Shown here piece by piece: positions 1,889 through 30,981 of a stretch of 33,201 bases of DNA. The translations under genes were made by a program, and so were the position numbers. The stretch covers positions 1 through 33,201 of the forward strand of contig JAFGGI010000023.1 of assembly GCA_016930635.1 (NCBI GenBank), given 5' to 3'. The first letter of the stretch is position 1, and each line of letters opens with the position of its first letter. The notes below the pieces were generated by a model that was not told the origin of the DNA, ran no database searches, and was given only the letters and a program-made list of their open reading frames with translations. Source of the DNA: Sedimentisphaerales bacterium (GTDB lineage Bacteria > Planctomycetota > Phycisphaerae > Sedimentisphaerales > UBA12454).

Positions 1889-1994
1889 ACGCTTTAGAGA
1901 ACTAAATCATGATAAAGCCTAAGAAAATCAACTGTCGTACGATAGTTGGCAGCGGCCTTTGGAGGGTGTTCTGCAACAATGGGAGGACAGGGTC

Positions 1995-2711
1995 ATGAAT
2001 GAGATTGCTTTTGGCGTTTTTCTTATCTTCATAATAATCGCAGCAGGCGTATTTGCAATTCAACGATTTCAGCACAAGGCAGAAAAGGACAGGCAGGATA
2101 AATGGTTTACCGACCTGCTGGCCAATAAGGCCAAGATACAAACAGATACAAACTATGCACACGGGTCATGGTACCAGGAAATAGATGTAGATGATGACGG
2201 AAATGCAAACCATACTGTGGAGGCAGGTATTATAAATATCGGGGAAAAGGCATTAGAACATTTAACCTTTCCTGTTTACTGTGAAACCGAAAACGTATCT
2301 GAAAAAGAGGTACAGCCCTGGGCAGCGTGTGGGGAGAAATCTTTACCAGTCCAGGTGAAAAACTGGGTCAATGAACAGGGTCGAGGCCAATTGGTTATTT
2401 CCATTACTCCGGCTCTTTTGCCGGGGGAAAGACGAAATATACGATGGGGCTACAGACTTCCGTCAATATTCTCATCGGGAGATGAATTCTATAACTGGGA
2501 TGTGAGGACTCCCTTTCTTGAAATCGGCGGTAAAATCCAGTTCTCCCGGTCATGGTCTATTAGCGACATCCGATGGGACAGCGGCGTCAAAAAAAACCAG
2601 GCAATACCCAAAGTCAAGAAAAATGCAATCGTATGGAAAATGCGTTTCCCCAAATTAGGACAGAGAATTACAATGAGGTTCGGGCTGAGCAATAAGGCTA
2701 AAGATGCTTAG
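1995..2711 (+). CDS. Membrane-anchored protein of unknown function
   Basis: I do not recognise a family. From ATG 1995 (GGGAGG eight bases upstream) the product has 238 residues. It has one N-terminal membrane segment (about residues 4-20, rich in Ile, Phe and Ala), a basic and glutamine-rich juxtamembrane stretch, and then a soluble region with many short beta-type segments. The middle contains acidic DVDDDGNAN, and the C-terminal half is rich in Trp and Lys. The fold could be an all-beta extracytoplasmic domain, but that is only an impression. The last 14 bases overlap the 3' end of the convergent ahbD gene. No signal peptidase site is obvious, so it is probably anchored rather than released. 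Confidence 0.6.
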   Translation: MNEIAFGVFLIFIIIAAGVFAIQRFQHKAEKDRQDKWFTDLLANKAKIQTDTNYAHGSWYQEIDVDDDGNANHTVEAGIINIGEKALEHLTFPVYCETENVSEKEVQPWAACGEKSLPVQVKNWVNEQGRGQLVISITPALLPGERRNIRWGYRLPSIFSSGDEFYNWDVRTPFLEIGGKIQFSRSWSISDIRWDSGVKKNQAIPKVKKNAIVWKMRFPKLGQRITMRFGLSNKAKDA

Positions 2712-4290
2712 TTTTCAGTGATTTAACAGTGCCCAAAGTCTCAAACTTTTCTATTCCAAATCTTTCGACAAAATCATTCACAATTTCAGCAAGCTGTTCG
2801 GAGCTTTGTGAGTGTATCATCGCGTAAATATTATACGGCCAATGGGGCTGTGTCTTCCTTTGGAAACAATGGCTTACCTGATCCAGGCTGCTTAGAAATT
2901 CAGCAGAGGATTGCAGGACATTACCTTGGGCTTCATAGCAAAACAAGGTATTAATTATATCGGGGGGGTTGTGACGCCTGACGGCAGATGAGTCGAGCTT
3001 GTAACGTCTGGTCGCAGGAAAAGAAAAGAATTCCGTCTTAAACTTTCCGGAAAACTCTTTGATAATTTTGTTTATTCCATCCGAATTTTTCGCCTTTAAC
3101 GTAAACCACAAATTATAATAATGGTCTCTTAAATAATTATGAGAAACATTCGGCAAAGAATTTACCGCATCGGTAACGGCGGCAAGCTGGCCGGTCTCTA
3201 TATGTGCAGCGATGAGTGTACTGACCGGGCCGGTATAAGAACAAATCGGATCGGAAGCGAGATAATCGCCTGTTTGAGCAAAGGCTCTTGCCCGGCACCC
3301 GCCGCAGGTTTCTATATAAATACACTCGCCACATTTACCAACGAAATTTTTTCGACGAATCGAATTTAAAAAATCGGATTTTTCCCAGATGGAGCCAAAA
3401 TCACCTGCTTTTAAAATATTACCGGCTGAGATTTTCAAAAATCCGCAGGTTTGGACATCACCTTCGTAACTGATAAATACAAAGTCGCCAGCCGCCAGAC
3501 AGCCAAAGGTTTTTTTCTTTGAGTCGGGATATAAACTATGAAAAACCACAGCAAACCGAGGGGCGCAGGTAAAACGCACATCGATATCACTTTCGGCTTT
3601 CAACTTTGCAACGGTTTTTAAGGTCTGTTCGTACTCTTTGCCGGTTAAAGCGATATCAGCAAGTTCGACTCCCCTGCCGGCAGGGACGAGCATAAACGGA
3701 TTGAAGCAATAGGCTCCAAGTTTTTCAGAAAGTTCAGCGATTTCAGTAAGATTTTTGAAATTGAGTTTTGTAACAGTTGTATTGATTTGAAATTTCAGAC
3801 CGGCCTGGCGTGCAATATCAGCTGCAGCGAGTGTTTTTTCAAAAGCACCGGGTGTTTGACGGAAATTATCATGCATCACAGCATTGGCTGAGTCGAGTGA
3901 AAAGGAAAGTGATATAACCTGTGCTTGTACGAGCTTTTGTGCAATATCCTGATTGAAATTGTAGCCGCAGGTCGCAACCGAAACAGGCAGGCCAACGGAA
4001 ACTGCATAGTCGATCAATTCAAATATGTCGTCTCTTTCGAGAGGTTCGCCGCCGGTGAAAATAAGGACAGACCTGTTGTAATCGGCGATGGATTTTATAA
4101 TCCTTTTACATTGCTCGGTAGTTAAATCATCTTTAAATTCAGGATCCGCCGATGCCCTGCAGTGAATGCAGTTCATTTTGCATCTGCGTGTAACTTCAAA
4201 GGCGATTATTCGAGGTTTTTTCAGACACGGACTTACACTGACTTTATCAGAGACTGACTGACACGGATTAATATTGTTTTTTTTAGACAC
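2698..4290 (-). CDS. ahbD: AhbD-type radical SAM heme synthase fused to AhbA-like and AhbB-like siroheme decarboxylase halves
   Basis: Residues 30-350 match AhbD, which oxidatively decarboxylates Fe-coproporphyrin III to heme b. The radical SAM cysteines are C37, C41 and C44 in RRCKMNCIHCRASA. TGGEPL follows at 79-84, FMLVPAGRG at 199-207, and SPASM-type auxiliary cysteines at 264, 282, 320, 323, 329, 332 and 350. A second part begins four residues after C350. Residues 353-437 resemble the ligand-binding half of AhbA (VSTLIAAH, VSHNYLRDHYYNLWFTL), and residues 443-530 resemble that of AhbB (VSHCFQRKTQPHWPYNIYAM, IHS). Both lack the roughly 60-residue AsnC-type helix-turn-helix found in stand-alone AhbA/B. 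Such halves form siroheme decarboxylase, so one polypeptide may carry two separate pathway steps. The gene is last in the heme operon, 23 bases after hemB. GTG at 4290 is the most upstream in-frame start; it has no ribosome site and lies in a 10-bp repeat, so the true start is uncertain. Confidence 0.85.
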   Translation of the reverse strand: MSKKNNINPCQSVSDKVSVSPCLKKPRIIAFEVTRRCKMNCIHCRASADPEFKDDLTTEQCKRIIKSIADYNRSVLIFTGGEPLERDDIFELIDYAVSVGLPVSVATCGYNFNQDIAQKLVQAQVISLSFSLDSANAVMHDNFRQTPGAFEKTLAAADIARQAGLKFQINTTVTKLNFKNLTEIAELSEKLGAYCFNPFMLVPAGRGVELADIALTGKEYEQTLKTVAKLKAESDIDVRFTCAPRFAVVFHSLYPDSKKKTFGCLAAGDFVFISYEGDVQTCGFLKISAGNILKAGDFGSIWEKSDFLNSIRRKNFVGKCGECIYIETCGGCRARAFAQTGDYLASDPICSYTGPVSTLIAAHIETGQLAAVTDAVNSLPNVSHNYLRDHYYNLWFTLKAKNSDGINKIIKEFSGKFKTEFFSFPATRRYKLDSSAVRRHNPPDIINTLFCYEAQGNVLQSSAEFLSSLDQVSHCFQRKTQPHWPYNIYAMIHSQSSEQLAEIVNDFVERFGIEKFETLGTVKSLKTKHL

Positions 4291-4310
4291 GGATTTACAC
4301 GGATTAACAC
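4196..4310 (-). repeat. Degenerate ~10-bp repeat (ATCCGTGT type) at the 5' end of the ahbD fusion gene
   Basis: Read on the minus strand, the unit GTGTTAATCC is followed by GTGTAAATCC and GTGTCTAAAA at exact 10-base spacing (4310 down to about 4281). Further variants occur inside the gene: TTAATCCGTGTCAGTC and GTAAGTCCGTGTCTG. The first 25-30 residues of the predicted protein are therefore repeat-encoded (NINPCQSVSDKVSVSPCL), which explains why they do not resemble AhbD. Confidence 0.6.
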
Positions 4311-4313
4311 TGT

Positions 4314-5288
4314 TTATAATTTATTTTGAGCAAGCTCTTTCGCAAAGTAAGTAATAATTACATCGGCACCGGCTCGTTTAATAGCTGTCAAAGATTCTAT
4401 CGCTGTTTCTTTTCTGTCAAAGACATCATGAGCGGCGGCAACATTTATTGCCATATATTCGCCGCTGACCTGATAGGCAGCTATGGGCACATCAAAACGC
4501 TGTTTGGCCCGGCAGATAATATCAAGATAAGCCATGGCAGGCTTGATCATTACAATATCAGCTCCTTCGTCAATATCGAGCTGGATTTCCCGCATAGCCT
4601 GTTTTACCGATGAGGCAATGTCCATCTGATAGGTTTTTCTATCGCCAAAGGCAGGAGCAGAATCGGCGGCATCACGGAATGGGCCATAAAATGCTGATGC
4701 GTATTTTGCTGAATACGACATAATAACAGTATCTGTAAATCCCTTTTCGTCAAGGGCTTTTCTTATTACAGCCACTCTGCCGTCCATCATATCAGATGGA
4801 GCAATTATATCTGCACCGGCATTTGCATGCGACAGAGCTACTTTAGCCAATATTTGACAGGTCGTATCATTGTCAATCTTTTCATCTTTTATTATGCCGC
4901 AATGGCCATGGTCGGTATAGGCGCAAAGACAGACATCGGTAATAACTAATAATTCTGGAACAGCTTTTTTGATTTTTTTAATTGCCTGCTGGAGGGCAGC
5001 ACTATCGTTATAGGCATCTGAGCCCTTTGCATCCTTCTTTTCAGGAAGGCCGAACAGTAAAACCGCAGGTATGCCGAGAGAGAAGACCTCCTTTGCCTCA
5101 TCAGCAATTAAGTCAGGTGAAAAGTGGAAACAGCCTATCATTGACTCTATCGGTTTTTTTATTCCGGCACCCGGGCAGATGAATAAGGGATAGATCAGAT
5201 TATCAACAGACAGATTTACACCTCTGACAAGCCGGCGCATTGATTCGCTCGTTCTGAGCCTGCGCATTTTAGCTGGTAACTTATCCAC
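4314..5288 (-). CDS. hemB: Delta-aminolevulinic acid dehydratase (porphobilinogen synthase)
   Basis: HemB condenses two 5-aminolevulinate molecules to porphobilinogen in the cytosol. The 324 residues are the usual length. The zinc-type metal site is present as DVCLCAYTDHGHCG, with C120, C122 and C130. The two active-site lysines are K195 in MSYSAKYASAFYGPF and K249 in DIVMIKPAMAYLD (Schiff base). GDRKTYQMD follows the first lysine as expected. The start is GTG, with AAGGAG six bases upstream at 5295-5300. That ribosome site lies inside the last codons of ahbC, and the ahbC stop is separated from this GTG by one base, so translation is probably coupled. It is the fourth gene of the heme operon. 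Confidence 0.97.
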   Translation of the reverse strand: MDKLPAKMRRLRTSESMRRLVRGVNLSVDNLIYPLFICPGAGIKKPIESMIGCFHFSPDLIADEAKEVFSLGIPAVLLFGLPEKKDAKGSDAYNDSAALQQAIKKIKKAVPELLVITDVCLCAYTDHGHCGIIKDEKIDNDTTCQILAKVALSHANAGADIIAPSDMMDGRVAVIRKALDEKGFTDTVIMSYSAKYASAFYGPFRDAADSAPAFGDRKTYQMDIASSVKQAMREIQLDIDEGADIVMIKPAMAYLDIICRAKQRFDVPIAAYQVSGEYMAINVAAAHDVFDRKETAIESLTAIKRAGADVIITYFAKELAQNKL

Positions 5289-5289
5289 T

Positions 5290-6420
5290 TTATACTCCTT
5301 GGGCGGATATTTCCTCGTCAGTCAGGAAACAATCCGGCTCCAAAACCCATTCAGATTTTAAATCATTACCGAAAAACCGCATATTTGTACCGCAGATTGT
5401 CAGCCAGCGGCATTTTTTGCATCTGGCCGGTGCAAAAGCGGTTTTATCTTTAAATATATGTAAATAATTCTTCATAATATTTTCAAATTTCTCTTCTGTT
5501 ATATTACCGAGCGTGTAATTTTGCCAGAACTGGTCAGGGTGAACATTGCCCTGCGAATCAACGTCGAAAATTTTCGTACCAATTTTGTTTCCGCCGAATT
5601 TTTCGAGCAGAGACAATACTTTTTCGTAAGACTCTGATTTTTCCTGTTTCAGACGATGTAAAACAAACGCGCCATCGACGTGATTGCCGACGGTAAGGAC
5701 CTCGGTTACACCTTTTTTGGAATATTCTTTTGCACAATCGAGAATATTGGCCAGGGCAGTTCTTATCTGCTGGTTTGTACACTTTAGATTGTTTTCTGCC
5801 GCCCTGCCTGCAGAGATCAGGTGATAGAAACAAATCCTGGAAACATTCAATTTTGCAGCAAGTGCGAAGATGTCAGCTATCTGGGTATAATTTATATTTG
5901 TTATTGTAAAACGCATACCTGTTTTCAGATTTATATCTTTACAAAACTTCATCGCATTTACAGCCGATTTGAAACTGCCTTTGATGCCGCGGAATTTATC
6001 ATGTGTTTCTTCTGTGCCGTCGATAGAGATGCCGACATATTTTACGCCTGCATCGAGAAGTTTTTTTGCTATTTCGGCATTTATCAGGCTTCCATTTGTC
6101 GAAAGGACGGTCCGCAGACCGATTTTGTGCGAAAACTGTAAAAGTTCTAATATCTTTTCCCTTTCGAGCGGTTCGCCGCCGCTGAAAAGTACAACAGGAC
6201 ATTTAACGGCTGCTAACTGCTCTAAAAGCTGTTTTGCCTGGGTTGCATCAAGTTCTTTGCCGCTTGTAGATTGCGCTTTGGCATAACAGTGGAGACAGTT
6301 TTGGCCGCATTTATTGGTACAATTATAGACAACTATAGGGCCTGTATCATTATCCGCACGATAACGATATTTGTCCGATTCATTTTCAATACCGCAATAT
6401 AATCTTGAAATATTAATCAT
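5290..6420 (-). CDS. ahbC: AhbC, radical SAM 12,18-didecarboxysiroheme deacetylase-type enzyme
   Basis: AhbC removes the acetate side chains of 12,18-didecarboxysiroheme to give Fe-coproporphyrin III in the alternative heme pathway; the heme d1 protein NirJ is its close relative. From ATG 6420 the protein has 376 residues. The radical SAM cysteines are C38, C42 and C45 (CGQNCLHCYA), and FSGGEPL follows at about 79-85. Markers typical of AhbC/NirJ are YHLISAGR (199-206), GNHVDGAF (245-252) and VHPDQFW (293-299). The C-terminal auxiliary cysteines are C334, C337, C343 and C364. Context favours AhbC over NirJ, because no heme d1 genes are present. An upstream in-frame TTG at 6468 would add 16 residues encoded by a hairpin repeat, so ATG is preferred although its ribosome site is weak. 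Confidence 0.9.
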   Translation of the reverse strand: MINISRLYCGIENESDKYRYRADNDTGPIVVYNCTNKCGQNCLHCYAKAQSTSGKELDATQAKQLLEQLAAVKCPVVLFSGGEPLEREKILELLQFSHKIGLRTVLSTNGSLINAEIAKKLLDAGVKYVGISIDGTEETHDKFRGIKGSFKSAVNAMKFCKDINLKTGMRFTITNINYTQIADIFALAAKLNVSRICFYHLISAGRAAENNLKCTNQQIRTALANILDCAKEYSKKGVTEVLTVGNHVDGAFVLHRLKQEKSESYEKVLSLLEKFGGNKIGTKIFDVDSQGNVHPDQFWQNYTLGNITEEKFENIMKNYLHIFKDKTAFAPARCKKCRWLTICGTNMRFFGNDLKSEWVLEPDCFLTDEEISAQGV

Positions 6421-6439
6421 AATCTTTGGGGATATTACC

Positions 6440-6464
6440 CCCCCGCCACAGGGGCGGGGGCTAA
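6440..6464. repeat. Hairpin repeat D with GGGCTAA border, between cobA/hemD and ahbC
   Basis: CCCCCGCC (6440-6447) pairs with GGCGGGGG (6453-6460) around ACAGG, followed by CTAAC. It belongs to the same family as the hairpins at 172-257. The CTA of its border is the TAG stop codon of cobA/hemD on the minus strand. In the transcript it would form a G+C-rich hairpin between two operon genes. It has no U-run, so it may affect mRNA processing or stability, but termination is not indicated. Confidence 0.6.
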
Positions 6465-7927
6465 CCAAATTTTTCCATTATTTCTATCAGACCATCAATA
6501 GTATGTTCCTGTGCTTCGACAGTCGGCATGATACCAAAATTTTTCAAGGTATCAGAAGTGGCCGGGCCTATAGACGCTATTTTTATTTTCTTTATCTCTT
6601 TCGGGTCAATATTTTCGAAGAAGCATCTAACAGCAAAGCTGCTTGCAAAGGTTATCCAGTCAACATTTCCGGAAAAGCTACTTTTCAGTCTTTCAGCAGT
6701 ATAGGTTGAGACCTGAGCAACTTCAGCCTTCGCTGCCTGAAGTTTTTCTGCTAATGTCAAATCTGCAAGAGCAGAACGAAGCAGCAGTATTTTTTTGCCT
6801 GCAGGGGCTTGTTCTTTTATAAAACTATCGGCAAGTGTTTTTGAAGTAAATTCTGCAGGCAGAAAATCAGCTATTATTCCAAACTCGCCAAGAGCATTTG
6901 CGGTTTCGCTGCCTATGCAGGCAATTTTGGCAGAGGCAAAGGCCCTGGCATCCTTACTAAATCCGGCCAAGGCATGGAAAAATACTCTAACACCTGTGGG
7001 GCTTGTAAAAAAGACCCAGTCAAAATCTCCAATTTTATTAATAATGTCTTTAACTTCTCTGGTATCGGTTAAATCCTGCAATTCAAATGCCGGACAACTA
7101 ATTGGGCAGGCTGCTCTGGCAGCAAGTTTATACGCAAAGGCAGCATTTCCTGTCACATCGCGGGTCATTAAAACTCTTTTACCGAACAACGGCTGGTTTT
7201 TCAGATAACTTTGACAATTTTTCCCGATTATCATTAAGGCAGGCGGCTCGATTTTTTCGACGGTGCATTTTTCAGCAATATCTGAGACTGCACCTTCGAC
7301 GATTTTTTGATTTTCCATCGAAGCATTTGCTACAACAATTGCATTTATATCAGAAGCGAGACCTGAGTCGACAAGTTTTCGGCAAATTTGTTTCATATTT
7401 GCAACGGCCATATAAAAAACTATTGTGCCGTTAAGTTTAGCAAGACTTTCAAAATCGACATCGATTTCTTTGTCTTTTGCGCCATGGCCTGTAATAAATG
7501 TTACCGCTGAAGCTGTGTCCCTGTCAGTAAGAACAATCCCGGCACAAGCGGCGGCTGCCGAGGCGGCCGTTATACCCGGGACAATCTCAAAATCGATATC
7601 GTTTTCAATCAGACATTTGATTTCTTCTGTTGCCCTGCCGAAAATCATTGCATCGCCGCCCTTGAGCCTGGCGATGGTTTTATGAACACTGGCCTTTTCG
7701 ACAAGCAAACGATTTATCTGTTGCTGGTCAATGGGATGTTTTGAGTGGTCTTTACCTACATAAACAAGTTCTGCGTCTGAGCGGGCAAAACTTAACAGTT
7801 CTTTGGCGATCAACCTGTCGTAAAGAATACAATCAGCCTGTTTGACTATCTGCAATGCTCTTATGCTGATAAGCTGCTGGCTGCCGGGGCCGGCACCGAT
7901 TAAATATACTCTTGTTTTTTTAGCCAT
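6461..7927 (-). CDS. cobA/hemD: Uroporphyrinogen-III C-methyltransferase / uroporphyrinogen-III synthase fusion
   Basis: The N-terminal part (about 5-240) is a SUMT/CobA methyltransferase that turns uroporphyrinogen III into precorrin-2 with two SAM. The C-terminal part (about 248-488) is HemD, which cyclises and inverts ring D of hydroxymethylbilane. The methyltransferase motifs are GAGPGSQQLI, ADCILYDRLI, RLKGGDAMIFGR, PGITAASAAAACAGI and VTFITGHG. The usual Asp-Pro after GAGPG is replaced by Ser-Gln here, and the usual Pro of GGDP is Ala. HemD shows VLMTR, FTSPTGVRVFF, IACIGSETANAL, ITFASSFAVRCFF and IASIGPATSDTL. CobA-HemD fusions are known in other anaerobes. ATG 7927 overlaps the hemC stop by eight bases, so translation is likely coupled. 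The fusion commits tetrapyrrole flux toward siroheme, the precursor used by the downstream ahb genes. Confidence 0.95.
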   Translation of the reverse strand: MAKKTRVYLIGAGPGSQQLISIRALQIVKQADCILYDRLIAKELLSFARSDAELVYVGKDHSKHPIDQQQINRLLVEKASVHKTIARLKGGDAMIFGRATEEIKCLIENDIDFEIVPGITAASAAAACAGIVLTDRDTASAVTFITGHGAKDKEIDVDFESLAKLNGTIVFYMAVANMKQICRKLVDSGLASDINAIVVANASMENQKIVEGAVSDIAEKCTVEKIEPPALMIIGKNCQSYLKNQPLFGKRVLMTRDVTGNAAFAYKLAARAACPISCPAFELQDLTDTREVKDIINKIGDFDWVFFTSPTGVRVFFHALAGFSKDARAFASAKIACIGSETANALGEFGIIADFLPAEFTSKTLADSFIKEQAPAGKKILLLRSALADLTLAEKLQAAKAEVAQVSTYTAERLKSSFSGNVDWITFASSFAVRCFFENIDPKEIKKIKIASIGPATSDTLKNFGIMPTVEAQEHTIDGLIEIMEKFG

Positions 7928-8837
7928 TGTTCAAAAGCTCCGAAGCACCGGCTGCCAAAAGCTGGTCCGCTAAATCCCTTGCGATTTTTTTTGCTTCTGC
8001 AACCGGGCCTTGCAGGCGGCAATTAATAAAGCCATCTGTCTGTCCATCAGAGACAAATGCATAAATTATTATATCATTTTCTTCGATTTTTGCAAACACA
8101 CCGGCCGGGGCGTGACAACCTGCTTTTATATGATGCCAGATAAGCCTTTCCGTATCGGAGCTGATTCGCGACTGTTCGTCGTCAATTGCAGAAAGTAAAT
8201 TTATAGTATCAGTATCTGCCGCTCTTGTCTGGACGGCGATTGCGCCCTGGGCCGGGGCTGGAATAAATTCCGTCGGGTCGAATATTACGGAAATCTTATC
8301 TGTCAGGCCCAATCTTTCCAGGCCGGCATAAGCAAGGACAGATGCATCGTATTGGCCGCTGTTAACTTTTTCTACTCTTGTCGGCACGTTGCCCCTTATC
8401 GGTTCGCAGATAATATCGGGGCGTAACTTTAATATCTGTGCCCTTCTGCGCAGGCTTGATGTGCCAACTTTAGCGCCTTTGGGTAAATCTTTTAACGATT
8501 CGATTTTCTGTGCGGCAACCAAACAGTCCTGGCAGAATCGTCTATCGAGTACTGCAGCAGTTATAATATCTTTTGGTTCTGCTATCGGTAAATCCTTGTA
8601 ACTGTGCACCGCTATATCGGCTTTGTTTGAGCGTAAAGTCTCTTCAATGGCAGCCGTGAAAAAACCTGTCTCAGATAACTTCCACAAAGGCTTGTTCCTA
8701 TCGATATCGCCTTTGCTTTTTATCTCGACTATCTCAAAATCAATGCCGGGATGCACCTTCCTCAAAGCCTTAATCACAATCTGAGTCTGGATCAGGGCTA
8801 AACTGCTCGAACGTGTTGCTATCCGGAATTTGGTCAT
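7920..8837 (-). CDS. hemC: Porphobilinogen deaminase (hydroxymethylbilane synthase)
   Basis: HemC polymerises four porphobilinogens into hydroxymethylbilane in the cytosol, using a covalently bound dipyrromethane cofactor. From ATG 8837 the protein has 305 residues, the normal length. Visible motifs are IATRSSSLALIQT at the N terminus, the catalytic-Asp region VHSYKDLP, GTSSLRRRAQ, IRGNVPTRVEK, LAYAGLERLG and PAPAQGAIAVQ. The cofactor cysteine is C241 in AGCHAPAG. A TTG one codon upstream is possible but less likely. It is the first gene of the operon, transcribed away from the TPR/alpha-CTD gene across a 314-base divergent region. Neither hemA nor hemL is adjacent, so 5-aminolevulinate synthesis must be encoded elsewhere. 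Confidence 0.97.
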   Translation of the reverse strand: MTKFRIATRSSSLALIQTQIVIKALRKVHPGIDFEIVEIKSKGDIDRNKPLWKLSETGFFTAAIEETLRSNKADIAVHSYKDLPIAEPKDIITAAVLDRRFCQDCLVAAQKIESLKDLPKGAKVGTSSLRRRAQILKLRPDIICEPIRGNVPTRVEKVNSGQYDASVLAYAGLERLGLTDKISVIFDPTEFIPAPAQGAIAVQTRAADTDTINLLSAIDDEQSRISSDTERLIWHHIKAGCHAPAGVFAKIEENDIIIYAFVSDGQTDGFINCRLQGPVAEAKKIARDLADQLLAAGASELLNNG

Positions 8838-8881
8838 CAAAACATCACTTTTAAAACATTTACCTCAATATAACCACTTAT

Positions 8882-9151: not shown

Positions 9152-10468
9152 ATGGTAGCGATAAGCCAGCCTCAGGTCGATTTGTTAAGTGCTGAAAATG
9201 TTACTCTCGAAGCTATTGCTTCGACGGCAGAATTTGTAAACTCCAGTGAGCGAAACAAACTTGATTTTACTCAAAAAGTTAACGAGGAAGCCTCAAAACC
9301 CGGCAGAAAAAACTATCTCGGATTAGGTTCTGCCCTTGCGATACTGGGTAAATATGATGCCGCGATAGAGACACTTGAAAAGGCCGATGAAAGTAAAGAG
9401 AAATACTTCGAACTGGCTTTTTGTCTGCGGAAAACAGAAGAATATGACAGAGCAATCGAATCACTCGACAAAGCCGGCAACATAGGCGCTGACGGACTGG
9501 TTGTTAATTGCGCAAAAGCATCCATATACAGAGTAAAAGGTGATTTTGAAAAAGCCTTAAAAACACTGTCAGCATATGAGAATTATCAGAAAGTAAGCGC
9601 CTTATATCATTATACGCTCGGCAGATGCCTGCAAAGTCAGGGCAAGTATGACGAGGCTATTGAAAATTATCAGGCAGCGGTAGAAATCGAACCAACTCAC
9701 CCGAAAGCGCTGTTCCATCTTGCATTTCTGCTTGATATCAGGGGTGATGAGGAGGCTGCTATCAACTACTACAAGCAGTTGATAGGAAACGGGCCTGTAT
9801 ATGTCAGTGCCCTGCTGAACATGGTCGTACTCTACGAAGATATGGGTGAATACGACAAGGCGTTTAAATGTGTCAACCAGGTTCTCAAATTTCATCCGAA
9901 TAACGAAAGAGCGATACTTTTTAAAAAGGATATCGAAAGTTCCAAGACAATGCTTTATGACGAAGAAATCGAGAAGTCGAAAGATATTCAGCACAGAACT
10001 CTTGAGACGCCTATTTCTGATTTTGAACTTTCCGTAAGAAGCAGAAACTGTCTTAAAAAGATGAATATTTTTACTATCGGCGACCTGATGAGAATTACAG
10101 AGACCGAATTGCTTGCTTATAAAAACTTCGGCGAGACATCACTTAATGAAATCAAACAGATGCTTGAATCGAAGGGTTTAAGGCTCGGTATGGCGATAGA
10201 AGGTAAGCCGACACCGTCAATTCTGCCGGAAATACTCGAATCTGAAACTGATATAGACCCTGAACTGCTTAACAAACCTCTGGCTGATTTTGAGATGTCC
10301 GTCAGAGCAAGAAAATGTCTGGAACATCTGAATATCAGAACTATTGGCGATATCATTGGAAAAACAGAGGCCGAGCTGCTCGGCGTCAAGAACTTCGGTG
10401 CTACAAGCCTAATAGAAATAAATCAGATTCTCGAGCCGCTCGGATTGTCTTTGCGCAGGCTCGACTGA
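9152..10468 (+). CDS. TPR protein with two C-terminal RNA polymerase alpha-CTD domains
   Basis: Residues about 50-260 are tetratricopeptide repeats, for example LGRCLQSQGKYDEAIENYQA and the block starting at 189. Two copies of the RNA polymerase alpha-subunit C-terminal domain follow, at about 284-348 and 374-438. Copy 1 reads FELSVRSRNCLKKMNI and copy 2 FEMSVRARKCLEHLNI. Both keep the Arg matching E. coli alpha R265, the main UP-element contact (R296 and R385). Asn268 is kept only in copy 1, Gly296 and Ser299 are kept in both, and Lys298 is Thr in both. There is no alpha N-terminal domain, so this is not RpoA. DNA binding, or contact with transcription factors that normally touch alpha, is an inference. 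The downstream gene starts 12 bases later and is probably cotranscribed. I recall similar TPR-plus-alpha-CTD proteins in planctomycetes, with unknown function. Confidence 0.85.
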   Translation: MVAISQPQVDLLSAENVTLEAIASTAEFVNSSERNKLDFTQKVNEEASKPGRKNYLGLGSALAILGKYDAAIETLEKADESKEKYFELAFCLRKTEEYDRAIESLDKAGNIGADGLVVNCAKASIYRVKGDFEKALKTLSAYENYQKVSALYHYTLGRCLQSQGKYDEAIENYQAAVEIEPTHPKALFHLAFLLDIRGDEEAAINYYKQLIGNGPVYVSALLNMVVLYEDMGEYDKAFKCVNQVLKFHPNNERAILFKKDIESSKTMLYDEEIEKSKDIQHRTLETPISDFELSVRSRNCLKKMNIFTIGDLMRITETELLAYKNFGETSLNEIKQMLESKGLRLGMAIEGKPTPSILPEILESETDIDPELLNKPLADFEMSVRARKCLEHLNIRTIGDIIGKTEAELLGVKNFGATSLIEINQILEPLGLSLRRLD

Positions 10469-17181: not shown

Positions 17182-20100
17182 ATGGACAGAAATCTCGCAC
17201 GTTTTGGATTTGTAGCGATAATTATCCTGGTGGCTTTTGCTGTTTCTCAGCTTTATCCGCCTGAGAAAACATTAAAGCCCGGCCTTGACCTGGCCGGCGG
17301 TACAAGTCTTATCTATGAAATCGACACAACGGGTCTTCAGGGTAACGAGGTAGATAATCTTGCCCAGAAGCTTGCACCAACATTGTTGAAACGTATTGAC
17401 CCCGGAAATGTTCAAAATATCATTATGCGTCCCCAGGGTGATACGAGGCTTGAAATACAGGTTCCTCTGGCAAGCGCGGATACACATCTTAAGCGTCAGG
17501 CTTATGATGACGCACTTGAAGCTATCGCCAAAGATAATATTAATCTGGCAATCATAAAAAGGACTCTGGCCAAAGACCCGGCTCAAAGAGACGAGGATTT
17601 TGCCAAATTTGCCGGCGACAGTGACAACCGAAAAGAGATTCTTGCAAAACTTTCTTTAACCTACGACGCCCGGAAAATTGCTCAGGATGAGAGAGACGAC
17701 CTTAAATCCAAACTTAATACAATAACTGATAAGCTTGAAAATGCCGGCATAGATAATCAGTCATTGTCATATACCGCTCTTTCATGGAATAATCTGGACC
17801 CCAACAAACAATCCAAGCAGATAGACGAGCTTATCGCCGACGCAAACACGGCTGGAAAGATATTCGTTTCTCAACAGGAGACACGTCAGCAAATCGAACA
17901 GTATCTCGATATCTACCAGCAATGGGCCCAGGTGGTTAACAAACTTACAGAGCCGGAAACAGGTCTTAACGCCGCATACAGGCAGGCTGAAAGACAACTC
18001 AGAGATTTTAACCTCAGTACTGATGTTCTTGTCGGTGTTCTCGAGATGCCGGCAAAGTCCGTAAGCCGTGCAGATATGATTCAACAATTGAAAAACAACT
18101 TCCCCTCAAAAGAGCAGGAAATCGATAACCTCGTAAAAGTCTTTGAAGAATATCGCCCTGTCAGGGGAAGAATTGACGGACCTGAAGATGTAAAACGAAT
18201 GCTTAAAGGAGCAGGCGTACTGGAATTCCGAATTTTGCCTAAACTGGATGACGGAAGAACCAAGCAGGATGAGATACTCACTTACATCGAAGCACTAAAA
18301 ACAAAGGGACCGAAACTTGCTTCGGACAGCAAATACGTCTGGATAGAAATAGAAGACAAAGAAAATAACAGTTGGCGACAAACAGAAAACAACCAGATTA
18401 TTATCGATACCTTTGCAGATAAGTACTATGTCCTTGCAAGTAATCAGAAAGATGAATGTCTTCTGAAGGGCAGCGGTCAAAAAGCCTGGAAGCTGCAAAA
18501 GGCAGGTCATACCGTCGACCAAATGGGTAAAAGAGCTATTGATTTTATGTTCGATGAAGTCGGTGCCGGACTATTTTATAATGTAACCAGAAATAATCTT
18601 CAAAGACCACTTTGTATTATTCTCGACGGCATGGCAATATCATCGCCGAATATAAGAAGTGCGATTCGCAGCCGAGGCGTAATCGAAGGCGACTTCTCCG
18701 CAGTCGAGCAGACGGATATGGTTGACAAGCTCAACGCAGGTTCACTTCCTGCAAGGCTTATCGAACCTCCGATATCAGAAAAGACTATAGGACCTATCAT
18801 AGGAGCGGACAACCGTACTCGAGGTATTAAAGCCGGGCAAATCGGTTTGATAGCGGTCGCTATATTTATCTTTATTTATTACACATTTGCAGGATCGATC
18901 GCAGATTTAGCACTGTTTATGAATATTCTTTTTGTTCTGGCAATAATGGCGCTGAGCAGAGCGACTTTCACATTGCCGGGCATTGCCGGTATTATCCTTA
19001 CTATAGGTATGAGCGTTGACGCAAACGTGCTCATATTCGAGCGTATCCGTGAAGAACAGCTCAAGGGCTCGTCACTGCGTATAGCTATAGACAGTGGTTA
19101 TCAGCGGGCTTTCAGTACAATTCTTGATGCCAACATAACAACCTTCATCACTGCGATGATTCTTTATATGGTAGCCTCAGAAGAAATCAAAGGTTTCGCC
19201 CTGACATTAATGCTTGGTATCGGCTCAAGTATGTTCACGGCACTTTTTGTGACGCGAGTTATTTTTCAACTGCTGCTTGACAAAGGTATAATCCGAAACC
19301 ATCTGACAATGAGGAGAATTATTAAAGACCCGAAAATTAACTGGATGAAAATTCGCATGCCTATGCTTATTTTCTCTGTTATAATGGTAGCTGGAGGTTT
19401 AAGTGTTTTCTACACACGGGATGACGAGGCTAATAATAAATATGATATTGAATTTACAGGCGGCACAAGCATACAAATAAACCTAAAGCCTGAATGTGCA
19501 ATGGACCGTTCAGAGGTTGAAGAGATTATTCGGCAAGAAGGTGCTCAGCTAAATAATAATGCCATTGCAGCAGCTAAAGTCTATAGTGTAGGTGATAAAG
19601 AATCAAAAACACAATATGAAATCACAACTACGGAGACAAATAAAACGACATCTGAACTGTTGTTTTACGATGAGACTGAAAGAACTATTGCAGGTATTAC
19701 TGCAGCAATCTTAAATGCTCAAAAAAGTGTCAGAGGTGTAATGTTCGACCTTTCAGTTAAACAGGATCCGCAAAACACATCAAAATTTATTGTTACCACA
19801 AGCCAGGCTAATAGATATATCGTCTCGGCAATACTATCTAAAGCTTTTGATACAGACAAATCCGCGGTAGTAATAAGTGATCCGAAAGTTGACGAAATTG
19901 TCAGCCGAGCTGTCAAGGAAGCTTTCGAAGGTAAATTACAGATTATGGAGAATCTTAAGCCTAATATTACCTCAACCGAAAAAATTGATGATTCTGTTCT
20001 TGATAAGATGCCTGAACTGGGAGATTTTCTCGGCGGAATTAAAATCAACTTTACAGTTGAAAAACCTGTAACTCTTGCCGAGATAAATAAACGGCTCAAA

Positions 20101-20904
20101 GAATTGCAGTTCAAACCGGATATGCAGGATATTATATGGAACAGTTATGAACTCTATGACAGCGATCTAAACACACAAAATGAGGAAAAGCTAACAGAAT
20201 TTGTCTACGTAAGCGCTGAAGCTGATGCAGGATATCGTCAACTAAGCGAGGATGAATGGAACAGATTTACAGCAAATGAAACCACCAAAATTACAACTGC
20301 CGGCACAATGCAGACTTCGCTGCCTCGTGTTACACAAATAGCCCCTTCTGTGGGACAACAGGCTAAGACACGGGCAATAGTCGCAATTGTATTGTCGATA
20401 CTTGCGATAATCGCTTATATCTGGATCAGGTTCGGTACACTTCGTTACGGCATCGCAGCAACTGTCGCACTTGTTCATGACGTATCTATAACCTTAGGAG
20501 TAATAACGGGCTGTACTTATATCGCAGGAACTCCGCTGGGACAGGCTTTGCTTATCGGTGATTTCAAAATAGACCTTGCAATGATAGCGGCATTTTTGAC
20601 AATTATCGGTTATTCATTGAATGATACCATCGTTGTATTTGACAGGATTCGTGAGAACAGAGGTAAACTCGCAACTATCAGCCCCGAATTAATAACAAAC
20701 AGTATCAATCAGACACTTTCCAGAACGTTACTTACATCATTGACAACGTTCCTCGCTGTCATCGTAATGTATATCTGGGGAGGCCCGGGCCTCAGAGGCT
20801 TTACATTTGCAATGCTTGTCGGTATTATTGTCGGTACGTATTCTTCAATTGCGATAGCCGCCCCGCTGCTGATACTTGGGAAAAAGCTGAAAAAGACTAA
20901 ATAG
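17182..20904 (+). CDS. secDF: Fused SecD-SecF protein-export membrane protein
   Basis: SecDF uses proton motive force to pull secreted proteins out of the SecYEG channel on the outer side of the membrane. One open frame of 1240 residues contains all of SecD and SecF. SecD has LDLAGGTSLIYEID (about 33), GVLEFRILP (about 341), AISSPNIRSAI, LNAGSLPARLIEPP, and six-helix motifs ending TIGMSVDANVLIFERIREE (about 610). SecF begins near 727, with YDIEFTGGTS (about 755) and IIGYSLNDTIVVFDRIRENR (about 1141). Two regions are much enlarged: roughly residues 98-333 of the SecD periplasmic part, rich in Gln, Asp and Lys and partly coiled-coil-like, and the SecF first periplasmic loop (about 743-1061). 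Fused SecDF is normal in several phyla; the size of these loops is not typical of proteobacteria. Confidence 0.96.
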   Translation: MDRNLARFGFVAIIILVAFAVSQLYPPEKTLKPGLDLAGGTSLIYEIDTTGLQGNEVDNLAQKLAPTLLKRIDPGNVQNIIMRPQGDTRLEIQVPLASADTHLKRQAYDDALEAIAKDNINLAIIKRTLAKDPAQRDEDFAKFAGDSDNRKEILAKLSLTYDARKIAQDERDDLKSKLNTITDKLENAGIDNQSLSYTALSWNNLDPNKQSKQIDELIADANTAGKIFVSQQETRQQIEQYLDIYQQWAQVVNKLTEPETGLNAAYRQAERQLRDFNLSTDVLVGVLEMPAKSVSRADMIQQLKNNFPSKEQEIDNLVKVFEEYRPVRGRIDGPEDVKRMLKGAGVLEFRILPKLDDGRTKQDEILTYIEALKTKGPKLASDSKYVWIEIEDKENNSWRQTENNQIIIDTFADKYYVLASNQKDECLLKGSGQKAWKLQKAGHTVDQMGKRAIDFMFDEVGAGLFYNVTRNNLQRPLCIILDGMAISSPNIRSAIRSRGVIEGDFSAVEQTDMVDKLNAGSLPARLIEPPISEKTIGPIIGADNRTRGIKAGQIGLIAVAIFIFIYYTFAGSIADLALFMNILFVLAIMALSRATFTLPGIAGIILTIGMSVDANVLIFERIREEQLKGSSLRIAIDSGYQRAFSTILDANITTFITAMILYMVASEEIKGFALTLMLGIGSSMFTALFVTRVIFQLLLDKGIIRNHLTMRRIIKDPKINWMKIRMPMLIFSVIMVAGGLSVFYTRDDEANNKYDIEFTGGTSIQINLKPECAMDRSEVEEIIRQEGAQLNNNAIAAAKVYSVGDKESKTQYEITTTETNKTTSELLFYDETERTIAGITAAILNAQKSVRGVMFDLSVKQDPQNTSKFIVTTSQANRYIVSAILSKAFDTDKSAVVISDPKVDEIVSRAVKEAFEGKLQIMENLKPNITSTEKIDDSVLDKMPELGDFLGGIKINFTVEKPVTLAEINKRLKELQFKPDMQDIIWNSYELYDSDLNTQNEEKLTEFVYVSAEADAGYRQLSEDEWNRFTANETTKITTAGTMQTSLPRVTQIAPSVGQQAKTRAIVAIVLSILAIIAYIWIRFGTLRYGIAATVALVHDVSITLGVITGCTYIAGTPLGQALLIGDFKIDLAMIAAFLTIIGYSLNDTIVVFDRIRENRGKLATISPELITNSINQTLSRTLLTSLTTFLAVIVMYIWGGPGLRGFTFAMLVGIIVGTYSSIAIAAPLLILGKKLKKTK

Positions 20905-29774: not shown

Positions 29775-30926
29775 TTACTTTAGAGCACCAAGCTTTGCTT
29801 TGACATCATCCAGTGTCTTTGTATAAGCACCCCCAAAAACCAACTCACAGCTTTTACCACTATCGGTAATCTCTATCGAATAGCCGACCAGACCTTCTTT
29901 GACTTCCTTTGAGACCTGGCTGCTGTCTAAATCCCTGACCATCGGAGCCTTTAAAAAACAAGGCTTAACCAAAGAGACACGATTGGCGATAAATATCAGA
30001 CAACACAAATCTTTTTTCTTTATCTTGCCGAGTTTGCGCATAGGGAAACACTTAACCAACAGCTCTATGCCGGGTATATGTTTAGACATCTTATCCTTTG
30101 CCTTTGAATCCGGTATACATTCCTTACTGGATATACTCCTTTTAAGACCCAACAGCATCGGGTCAAGCAGCATTGCCCTTAGATATCGTATTCTCCGCTT
30201 TACCCATTTGAATATCACAAGGCAGATAAGGAATATTATTATATTGATAACAAGTGCCAGCCAGGGATCAAAAGCATATATCAATGCAAGAAAAGCTGCG
30301 ATTGATTTATTGGCAATTTCGAAAATCGCATCCAAAGTCGGGATTGGTGATATAAGCGTCAGCAGCTCGAAGAAAAACCTGACGGTACTGATAACAAAAA
30401 TATTTACCGCTGCAGCACAGGCAAGTAAGCCCTGATGTGTAAACGTAAAGATCCCCGCAGTATAAACTACCTGCTGGGCGTCCGGCTGGTCTACAAGCAT
30501 AAGTATCACGCCATATGAAATTATACCGGCATACGTTTCCAGCCGTTCTGTAGATTCAGCAACTACTTTAGATACCGTCAGTAATCTCGGCACAGATGTA
30601 ATAATAGTCAGCCCCAGAAACGCTGCAAATACAAATGCGTTGTTGAGAGTATCATTGCCCATAAGGAAACTATTTTCAGGAAGTATGCCGTTATTACACA
30701 GGATTGAAGTTCCGCTCAGGCAGGTAAGACCGAAGAAAGGTGACAGTGCAACAGGCGCTAAAGGTCCAAGAGCCTCTGAAATGTTGAGCTTTTCAACTAA
30801 TATATTTGCTTTTAGCTGGTCCTGCTGCAGATTGAATTTATTTGCACTTGCCAGGCAGCAATCAACACAAAGCCAGAGGCAAATAAGCAGTAAAACCAAA
30901 AAATTTATATAGACAACTTTTCTCAT
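29775..30926 (-). CDS. Exported multi-pass membrane protein of unknown function
   Basis: I do not recognise the family. From ATG 30926 the 383-residue product begins with a typical signal sequence (MRKVVYINFLVLLLICLWLC, then CLASA), followed by a short polar segment. Four to six membrane helices lie between about 60 and 235, including NAFVFAAFLGLTIITSVP and LALVINIIIFLICLVIFKW. A basic soluble tail of roughly 130 residues ends in a small beta-type domain. An in-frame TTG at 30953 is possible but would put nine residues before the signal. It ends seven bases from the convergent 3' end of the histidine-rich membrane protein and follows a probable terminator after the Pmp3-family gene. Confidence 0.6.
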   Translation of the reverse strand: MRKVVYINFLVLLLICLWLCVDCCLASANKFNLQQDQLKANILVEKLNISEALGPLAPVALSPFFGLTCLSGTSILCNNGILPENSFLMGNDTLNNAFVFAAFLGLTIITSVPRLLTVSKVVAESTERLETYAGIISYGVILMLVDQPDAQQVVYTAGIFTFTHQGLLACAAAVNIFVISTVRFFFELLTLISPIPTLDAIFEIANKSIAAFLALIYAFDPWLALVINIIIFLICLVIFKWVKRRIRYLRAMLLDPMLLGLKRSISSKECIPDSKAKDKMSKHIPGIELLVKCFPMRKLGKIKKKDLCCLIFIANRVSLVKPCFLKAPMVRDLDSSQVSKEVKEGLVGYSIEITDSGKSCELVFGGAYTKTLDDVKAKLGALK

Positions 30927-30951
30927 ATCATCAGCAAAGGCCGAGAATAAC

Positions 30952-30981
30952 AAAAAATACCCAGATTTTCGCGTAAAATCT
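30952..30981 (-). terminator. Candidate rho-independent terminator after the Pmp3-family gene
   Basis: On the minus strand, AGATTTT and AAAATCT form a 7-bp stem with loop ACGCG (30963-30981), followed after a few bases by TTTTTT. The stem is A+T-rich, so strength is uncertain. It starts at the stop codon of the upstream gene. Confidence 0.45.

Follow-up and report, generated by a model that had tools for sequence, protein, structure and literature searches.

A predicted AhbD-AhbA-AhbB fusion protein lacking HTH domains in a family of planctomycetes

The heme gene cluster and the fusion gene

The window, which is the whole stretch of DNA analysed (33,201 nucleotides of contig JAFGGI010000023.1 from a Sedimentisphaerales bacterium, GCA_016930635.1), has heme-pathway genes on one strand in the order hemC-cobA/hemD-ahbC-hemB-fusion, the fusion gene being directly downstream of the others. 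The features of the fusion gene and its neighbors are as follows.

2698..4290, minus strand: AhbD-AhbA-AhbB fusion gene, HTH-less, 530 aa (open reading frame, Pfam, NCBIfam)
4225..4290, minus strand: N-terminal ~22 residues from tandem AATCCGTGT-type repeats, low-confidence, start codon uncertain
3241..4224, minus strand: AhbD-like radical SAM heme synthase part, residues 23-350
4159..4182, minus strand: CX3CX2C radical SAM cluster motif, C37-C44
3241..3567, minus strand: eight-Cys SPASM motif, AuxI and AuxII ligands (spacing as in PMC10452713)
2980..3225, minus strand: AhbA-type ligand-binding half, residues 356-437
3127..3141, minus strand: HXYXR of the AhbA half, H384, Y386 and R388, equivalent to His115A, Tyr117A and Arg119A (alignment, PMC4145669)
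2962..2979, minus strand: linker, residues 438-443, sitting where the AhbB HTH would be (alignment)
2707..2961, minus strand: AhbB-type ligand-binding half, residues 444-528
2857..2871, minus strand: HXYXR position of the AhbB half, H474-C-F476-Q-R478, equivalent to His98B, Tyr100B (changed to Phe) and Arg102B (alignment)
4314..5288, minus strand: hemB, porphobilinogen synthase (Pfam, NCBIfam)
5290..6468, minus strand: AhbC/NirJ1-like radical SAM protein, presumed 12,18-didecarboxysiroheme deacetylase (Pfam, NCBIfam)
6461..7927, minus strand: cobA-hemD fusion, uroporphyrinogen III methyltransferase/synthase (Pfam, NCBIfam)
7920..8840, minus strand: hemC, hydroxymethylbilane synthase (Pfam, NCBIfam)

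The fusion gene is a single intact open frame of 530 codons with a GTG start. A sequence-only reading had proposed that this one polypeptide combines AhbD with HTH-less AhbA and AhbB halves, and the order of an AhbD-like radical SAM/SPASM region, an AhbA-type half, and an AhbB-type half along the chain, with no HTH, was confirmed at the level of sequence families. Pfam places Radical_SAM at residues 32-186 and SPASM at 264-323, followed by two stretches of AsnC_trans_reg2 (PF17805). The latter family matches the whole protein with an E-value of 2.8e-35 and 120.8 bits (curated cut-off 27), with 58.7 and 69.1 bits for the two halves. The halves are resolved by NCBIfam, in which the AhbA model covers residues 356-433 and the AhbB model residues 447-528, each matching from about model position 60 on, the part after the HTH. 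No HTH family is listed for the protein by Pfam at E≤1, and PF22451, an HTH found in the decarboxylases of unfused relatives, is likewise unmatched, so the proposed loss of the winged-helix parts holds. No stop or frameshift lies between the radical SAM and C-terminal parts. An internal start yielding a free decarboxylase was rejected, as residues 330-378 include no in-frame ATG, GTG, or TTG codon. The true start codon is uncertain because the first ~22 residues are repeat-coded and mostly have a pLDDT <50: tandem AATCCGTGT-type repeats (window 4224-4315, minus strand) enter the 5' end of the gene and encode these residues, including the GTG. A relative (L010/L024) carries a similar NPCKSVSEKNSVNPC stretch at this position.

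The genome has 2.45 Mb in 64 contigs and is 96% complete. Within that completeness, no second PF17805 domain was found at E up to 1, nor any PF22451 HTH, ferrochelatase, cytochrome cd1/NirF domain, or heme d1 gene; SirC and HemA are encoded. To judge from gene content, the set is that of the siroheme-dependent heme route. The classical route was rejected on the missing ferrochelatase and a heme d1 pathway on the missing cd1/NirF domain. The genome has a single URO-D match, to the C-terminal region of a protein of 375 aa; by eye, no HemE-type motif is seen in the N-terminus of this protein, which was presumed to be a different kind of URO-D-like protein. The AhbC-like neighbor falls below the AhbC cut-off and its NirJ1 score is slightly above its AhbC score (NCBIfam). 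The genome-wide search for separate ahbA and ahbB genes that had been proposed as a check returned none, and the fusion seems to be the only siroheme decarboxylase and the only AhbD encoded in this 96% complete genome. Divergent from the heme operon (9152-10468, plus strand) is a gene for a TPR repeat protein with two terminal RNA polymerase alpha C-terminal domains (PF03118).

The AhbD part and the decarboxylase halves

The best NCBIfam match of the N-terminal part is AhbD (TIGR04545, 327.6 bits), followed by NirJ2 (296.9). The curated cut-off for TIGR04545 is 500 bits, which the fusion misses; two unfused Phycisphaerae AhbD homologues that were tested are also below it (367 and 370). The radical SAM cysteines of the CX3CX2C motif are C37, C41, and C44. 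The SPASM cysteines (C242, C264, C282, C320, C323, C329, C332, and C350) match exactly the eight-Cys spacing described for AhbDs that carry two auxiliary [4Fe-4S] clusters (PMC10452713). The C-terminal motif of AhbD is CX2CX5CX2CX17C, and the full eight-Cys SPASM motif is found in the AhbDs of methanogens and sulfate reducers (PMC10452713). C350 is the last SPASM cysteine, where the sequence-only reading had placed it, and the motifs that it had quoted for the halves are present. In a structure search with the full-length AlphaFold2 (AF2) model (pLDDT 91.8, pTM 0.79), the radical SAM part resembles SPASM enzymes such as SkfB, SuiB, and PqqE. The fusion has CX3CX2C, the eight-Cys SPASM motif, the best-scoring family, and an operon with ahbC in common with the AhbD heme synthases (TIGR04545) of Methanosarcina barkeri and Desulfovibrio; unlike them, it carries a C-terminal siroheme decarboxylase region and scores under the curated cut-off.

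In the AhbA half, H384, Y386, and R388 (H384-N-Y-L-R388) align with His115, Tyr117, and Arg119 of Desulfovibrio desulfuricans AhbA, and for the AhbB half the counterparts of H474 and R478 in AhbB are His98 and Arg102 (numbering per PMC4145669). Mutagenesis has shown Arg102B to be essential, with the active site between the two C-terminal domains, while Tyr100B was proposed as a possible acid (PMC4145669). Loss of active-site residues from the fused halves, together with separate ahbA and ahbB genes, had been named earlier as refuting the proposed function; the active-site residues are kept, except that the Tyr100B equivalent is F476. The equivalents of His115A, Arg119A, His98B, and Arg102B are invariant across 37 aligned proteins. 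At the Tyr100B position, Tyr is present in 29 of 30 HTH-bearing homologues, while of the eight fused proteins five have Tyr, one Phe, one Leu, and one Ile. The halves miss the curated NCBIfam cut-offs (AhbA 83.3 against 140 bits, AhbB 76.4 against 125), partly because both models extend over the HTH that the fusion lacks; one HTH-bearing AhbAB that was tested clears both, with 207 and 215 bits.

The AF2 model of the C-terminal 181 residues (pLDDT 92.3, pTM 0.87) has the secondary structure beta-alpha-beta-beta-alpha-beta, twice. Its best matches in the PDB are two NirDL entries, followed by AhbA/B chains, and the top match in Foldseek is NirDL 4ch7 (E 1.2e-12, TMq 0.82), in an alignment of 229 columns that spans both halves and skips the HTH. 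The rmsd of this match is high (8.1), which we take to be due to aligned residues flanking the HTH gap, and the TM-score is the better guide. Since NirDL is the top PDB match over both halves, these are predicted to pack as a pseudo-dimer like the known siroheme decarboxylase, and the intramolecular AhbA/AhbB pairing suggested earlier is consistent with the model. Like NirDL (PDB 4ch7, 4czc) and the archaeal AhbAB fusions, the protein has AhbA/NirD- and AhbB/NirL-type halves in one chain, with the NirDL likeness extending to the predicted fold over both halves and to the retained active-site His and Arg; unlike these, it has no HTH, is joined to AhbD, and has Phe for Tyr100B. With the AhbA/AhbB heterodimer of D. 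desulfuricans (PDB 4czd, 4un1), it shares HXYXR in the AhbA half, His98B and Arg102B, and pseudo-dimeric ligand-binding domains, but it is one chain, HTH-less, and within a larger protein.

Occurrence of the fusion and its relatives

The HTH-less fusion is present in eight of the 13 genomes of the planctomycete family. The members include Planctomycetes bacteria GWF2_42_9, GWF2_41_51, and HGW-Planctomycetes-1 and four more Phycisphaerae or planctomycete MAGs; these seven other fused proteins have 62-70% identity over the protein. Among the 13 family genomes, those with the fusion have no separate ahbA or ahbB except for one fragment of an AhbB half. This 92-aa second AhbB-half fragment (L124, G008, and L044, HGW-Planctomycetes-1) is on its own contig, and the genome has the full fusion too. 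A family member that is 97% complete (G001) has neither a PF17805 domain nor an AhbD match, and the pathway seems absent in some members. All three parts of the fusion are under purifying selection, judged where dS is unsaturated: dN/dS is 0.08-0.25 in each part in the unsaturated pairs only, many other pairs being saturated. In the fusion genes of L029, L030, and L024, in-frame inserts resembling translated interspersed repeats (such as SVIPAQAGIRAATVMERSS, VIPNEAQRSEESRS, and KLARHSLS..) sit at domain borders and ahead of the SPASM CX2C.

In a tree, the AhbD parts of the fusions fall together in a single clade (100/100) nested within the Phycisphaerae AhbDs, and the AhbC-like paralogues form a separate group (100/100). 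Other families of the order mostly have ahbD adjoining a two-HTH ahbAB (326-348 aa), after hemB. Relative to AhbAB, the alignment shows loss of the N-terminal HTH and of the inter-domain stretch, the latter now a linker of about six residues. The sequences suggest that adjacent ahbD and ahbAB genes were probably joined and that both HTH domains were deleted.

Fusions of AhbD to decarboxylase domains are also found elsewhere. HTH-bearing full fusions (AhbD-HTH-AhbA-HTH-AhbB) occur in the order of the window genome (L118 in G017, 688 aa), in two other Planctomycetota families (L121 and L123), and in a MAG of the Lentisphaerae (Lentisphaerota; L095). These four have the same domain order in a single frame as the HTH-less fusion, but they keep NirDL-like HTHs and are outside the HTH-less clade in the tree. 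Partial fusions were found in two Bacillota (L057 and L058; AhbD-HTH-AhbA, with AhbB separate) and in bacterium ADurb.Bin243 (L074; HTH-AhbB-AhbD). The HTH-bearing full fusions are scattered in the AhbD tree, requiring four changes, at least two of them forced by well-supported branches; as they are not one group, the AhbD-decarboxylase fusion probably arose several times.

Joining of AhbA to AhbB, earlier treated as a feature of this protein, is not special to it: ahbA and ahbB are fused in most archaea (PMC3942049), and the joined form is common both there (PMC3942049, PMC11237513) and among relatives of the order. An ahbAB-ahbD fusion has been reported in five Methanomicrobia assemblies (cluster 36.2; PMC11237513), where one predicted protein covers both of these pathway steps; these are archaeal, and the passage describing them makes no claim of HTH loss. 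The sequence-only reading had known of no described enzyme with this architecture. Given the archaeal report, the AhbAB-AhbD fusion per se is not unprecedented, while the HTH-less form was undescribed in the open-access literature searched. The apparently new features are that the fusion occurs in bacteria, that it originated repeatedly, and, most notably, that one planctomycete family has lost both HTHs completely. Overall, the earlier interpretation is well supported as a prediction, with a narrower novelty than was first thought because the archaeal fusion has already been reported (PMC11237513).

Proposed function and alternative explanations

On this evidence the fusion is very probably a bifunctional heme-pathway enzyme that carries out the first and third of the steps leading from siroheme to heme, AhbC taking the one between. 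Both activities are putative, assigned by analogy from family knowledge. Siroheme would bind between the C-terminal AhbA and AhbB halves, folded together as an intramolecular decarboxylase that would strip the C12 and C18 acetate carboxyls. The separate neighbor AhbC would convert the decarboxylated product to Fe-coproporphyrin III, which would go back to the AhbD part, where two propionates would be oxidatively decarboxylated to vinyl groups to give heme b.

A join of two neighboring genes by misassembly or frameshift has a natural source in adjacent genes, and the assembly is fragmented (64 contigs); however, the HTH-less fusion is found in seven more independent assemblies, a mere frameshift could not produce the HTH deletion, and purifying selection is seen in all parts. 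The probability of such an artefact is negligible and it was rejected on the seven independent relatives that share the fusion. It is improbable that the C-terminal halves are inactive and serve AhbD as a regulatory tail that binds heme or siroheme, for instance in heme feedback, with siroheme decarboxylated by an unrecognised enzyme. In M. barkeri and D. vulgaris the AhbA/B complexes do bind heme (PMC3942049, PMC4145669), and Tyr100B is replaced in three of the eight fused proteins, but the four other active-site His and Arg equivalents are invariant, the predicted fold matches NirDL across both halves, and the fused family genomes, apart from the single AhbB fragment, have no other siroheme-decarboxylase domain.

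The radical SAM part could instead be another tetrapyrrole enzyme of the NirJ/AhbC/AhbD group, acting toward heme d1 or an unknown heme and a different end product. The sub-threshold AhbD score and the AhbC-like neighbor, slightly nearer to NirJ1 by score, point in this direction; AhbD is nevertheless the best model for the fused part, the published SPASM spacing is present, the AhbC-like paralogues group apart in the tree, and the genome has no cytochrome cd1/NirF domain, making this explanation highly unlikely.

If the bifunctional enzyme is as proposed, a more tentative extension is that the fusion holds the two end enzymes around AhbC in a complex for making heme, along which the tetrapyrrole is handed on, and that its naturally minimised decarboxylase works without HTH and without Tyr100B; this is possible but doubtful. 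If true, both the HTH and Tyr100B would be dispensable for siroheme decarboxylation, and the fusion family would be a test of the role proposed for Tyr100B. The protein is also a natural experiment on a transcription-factor-like enzyme: should it decarboxylate siroheme despite having no HTH, that domain would be unneeded for catalysis. Such a result would bear on the question, raised in PMC4145669, of a DNA-binding role for AhbA/B. Any gain from tethering, whether through stoichiometry, channelling with AhbC, or feedback by heme, is speculative. Fusions of AhbD to the decarboxylase recur in several lineages although the two enzymes act at steps that do not follow one another. This suggests a link between the two ends of the pathway, either physical, through association with AhbC, or regulatory, given that heme binding is reported for AhbA/B from some species (PMC3942049, PMC4145669).

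Elsewhere in the window, proteins of 392 aa (29775-30953, minus strand) and 250 aa (1959-2711, plus strand) have no Pfam match at E≤0.001, and SecD and SecF are encoded as one 1240-aa protein (17182-20904, plus strand).
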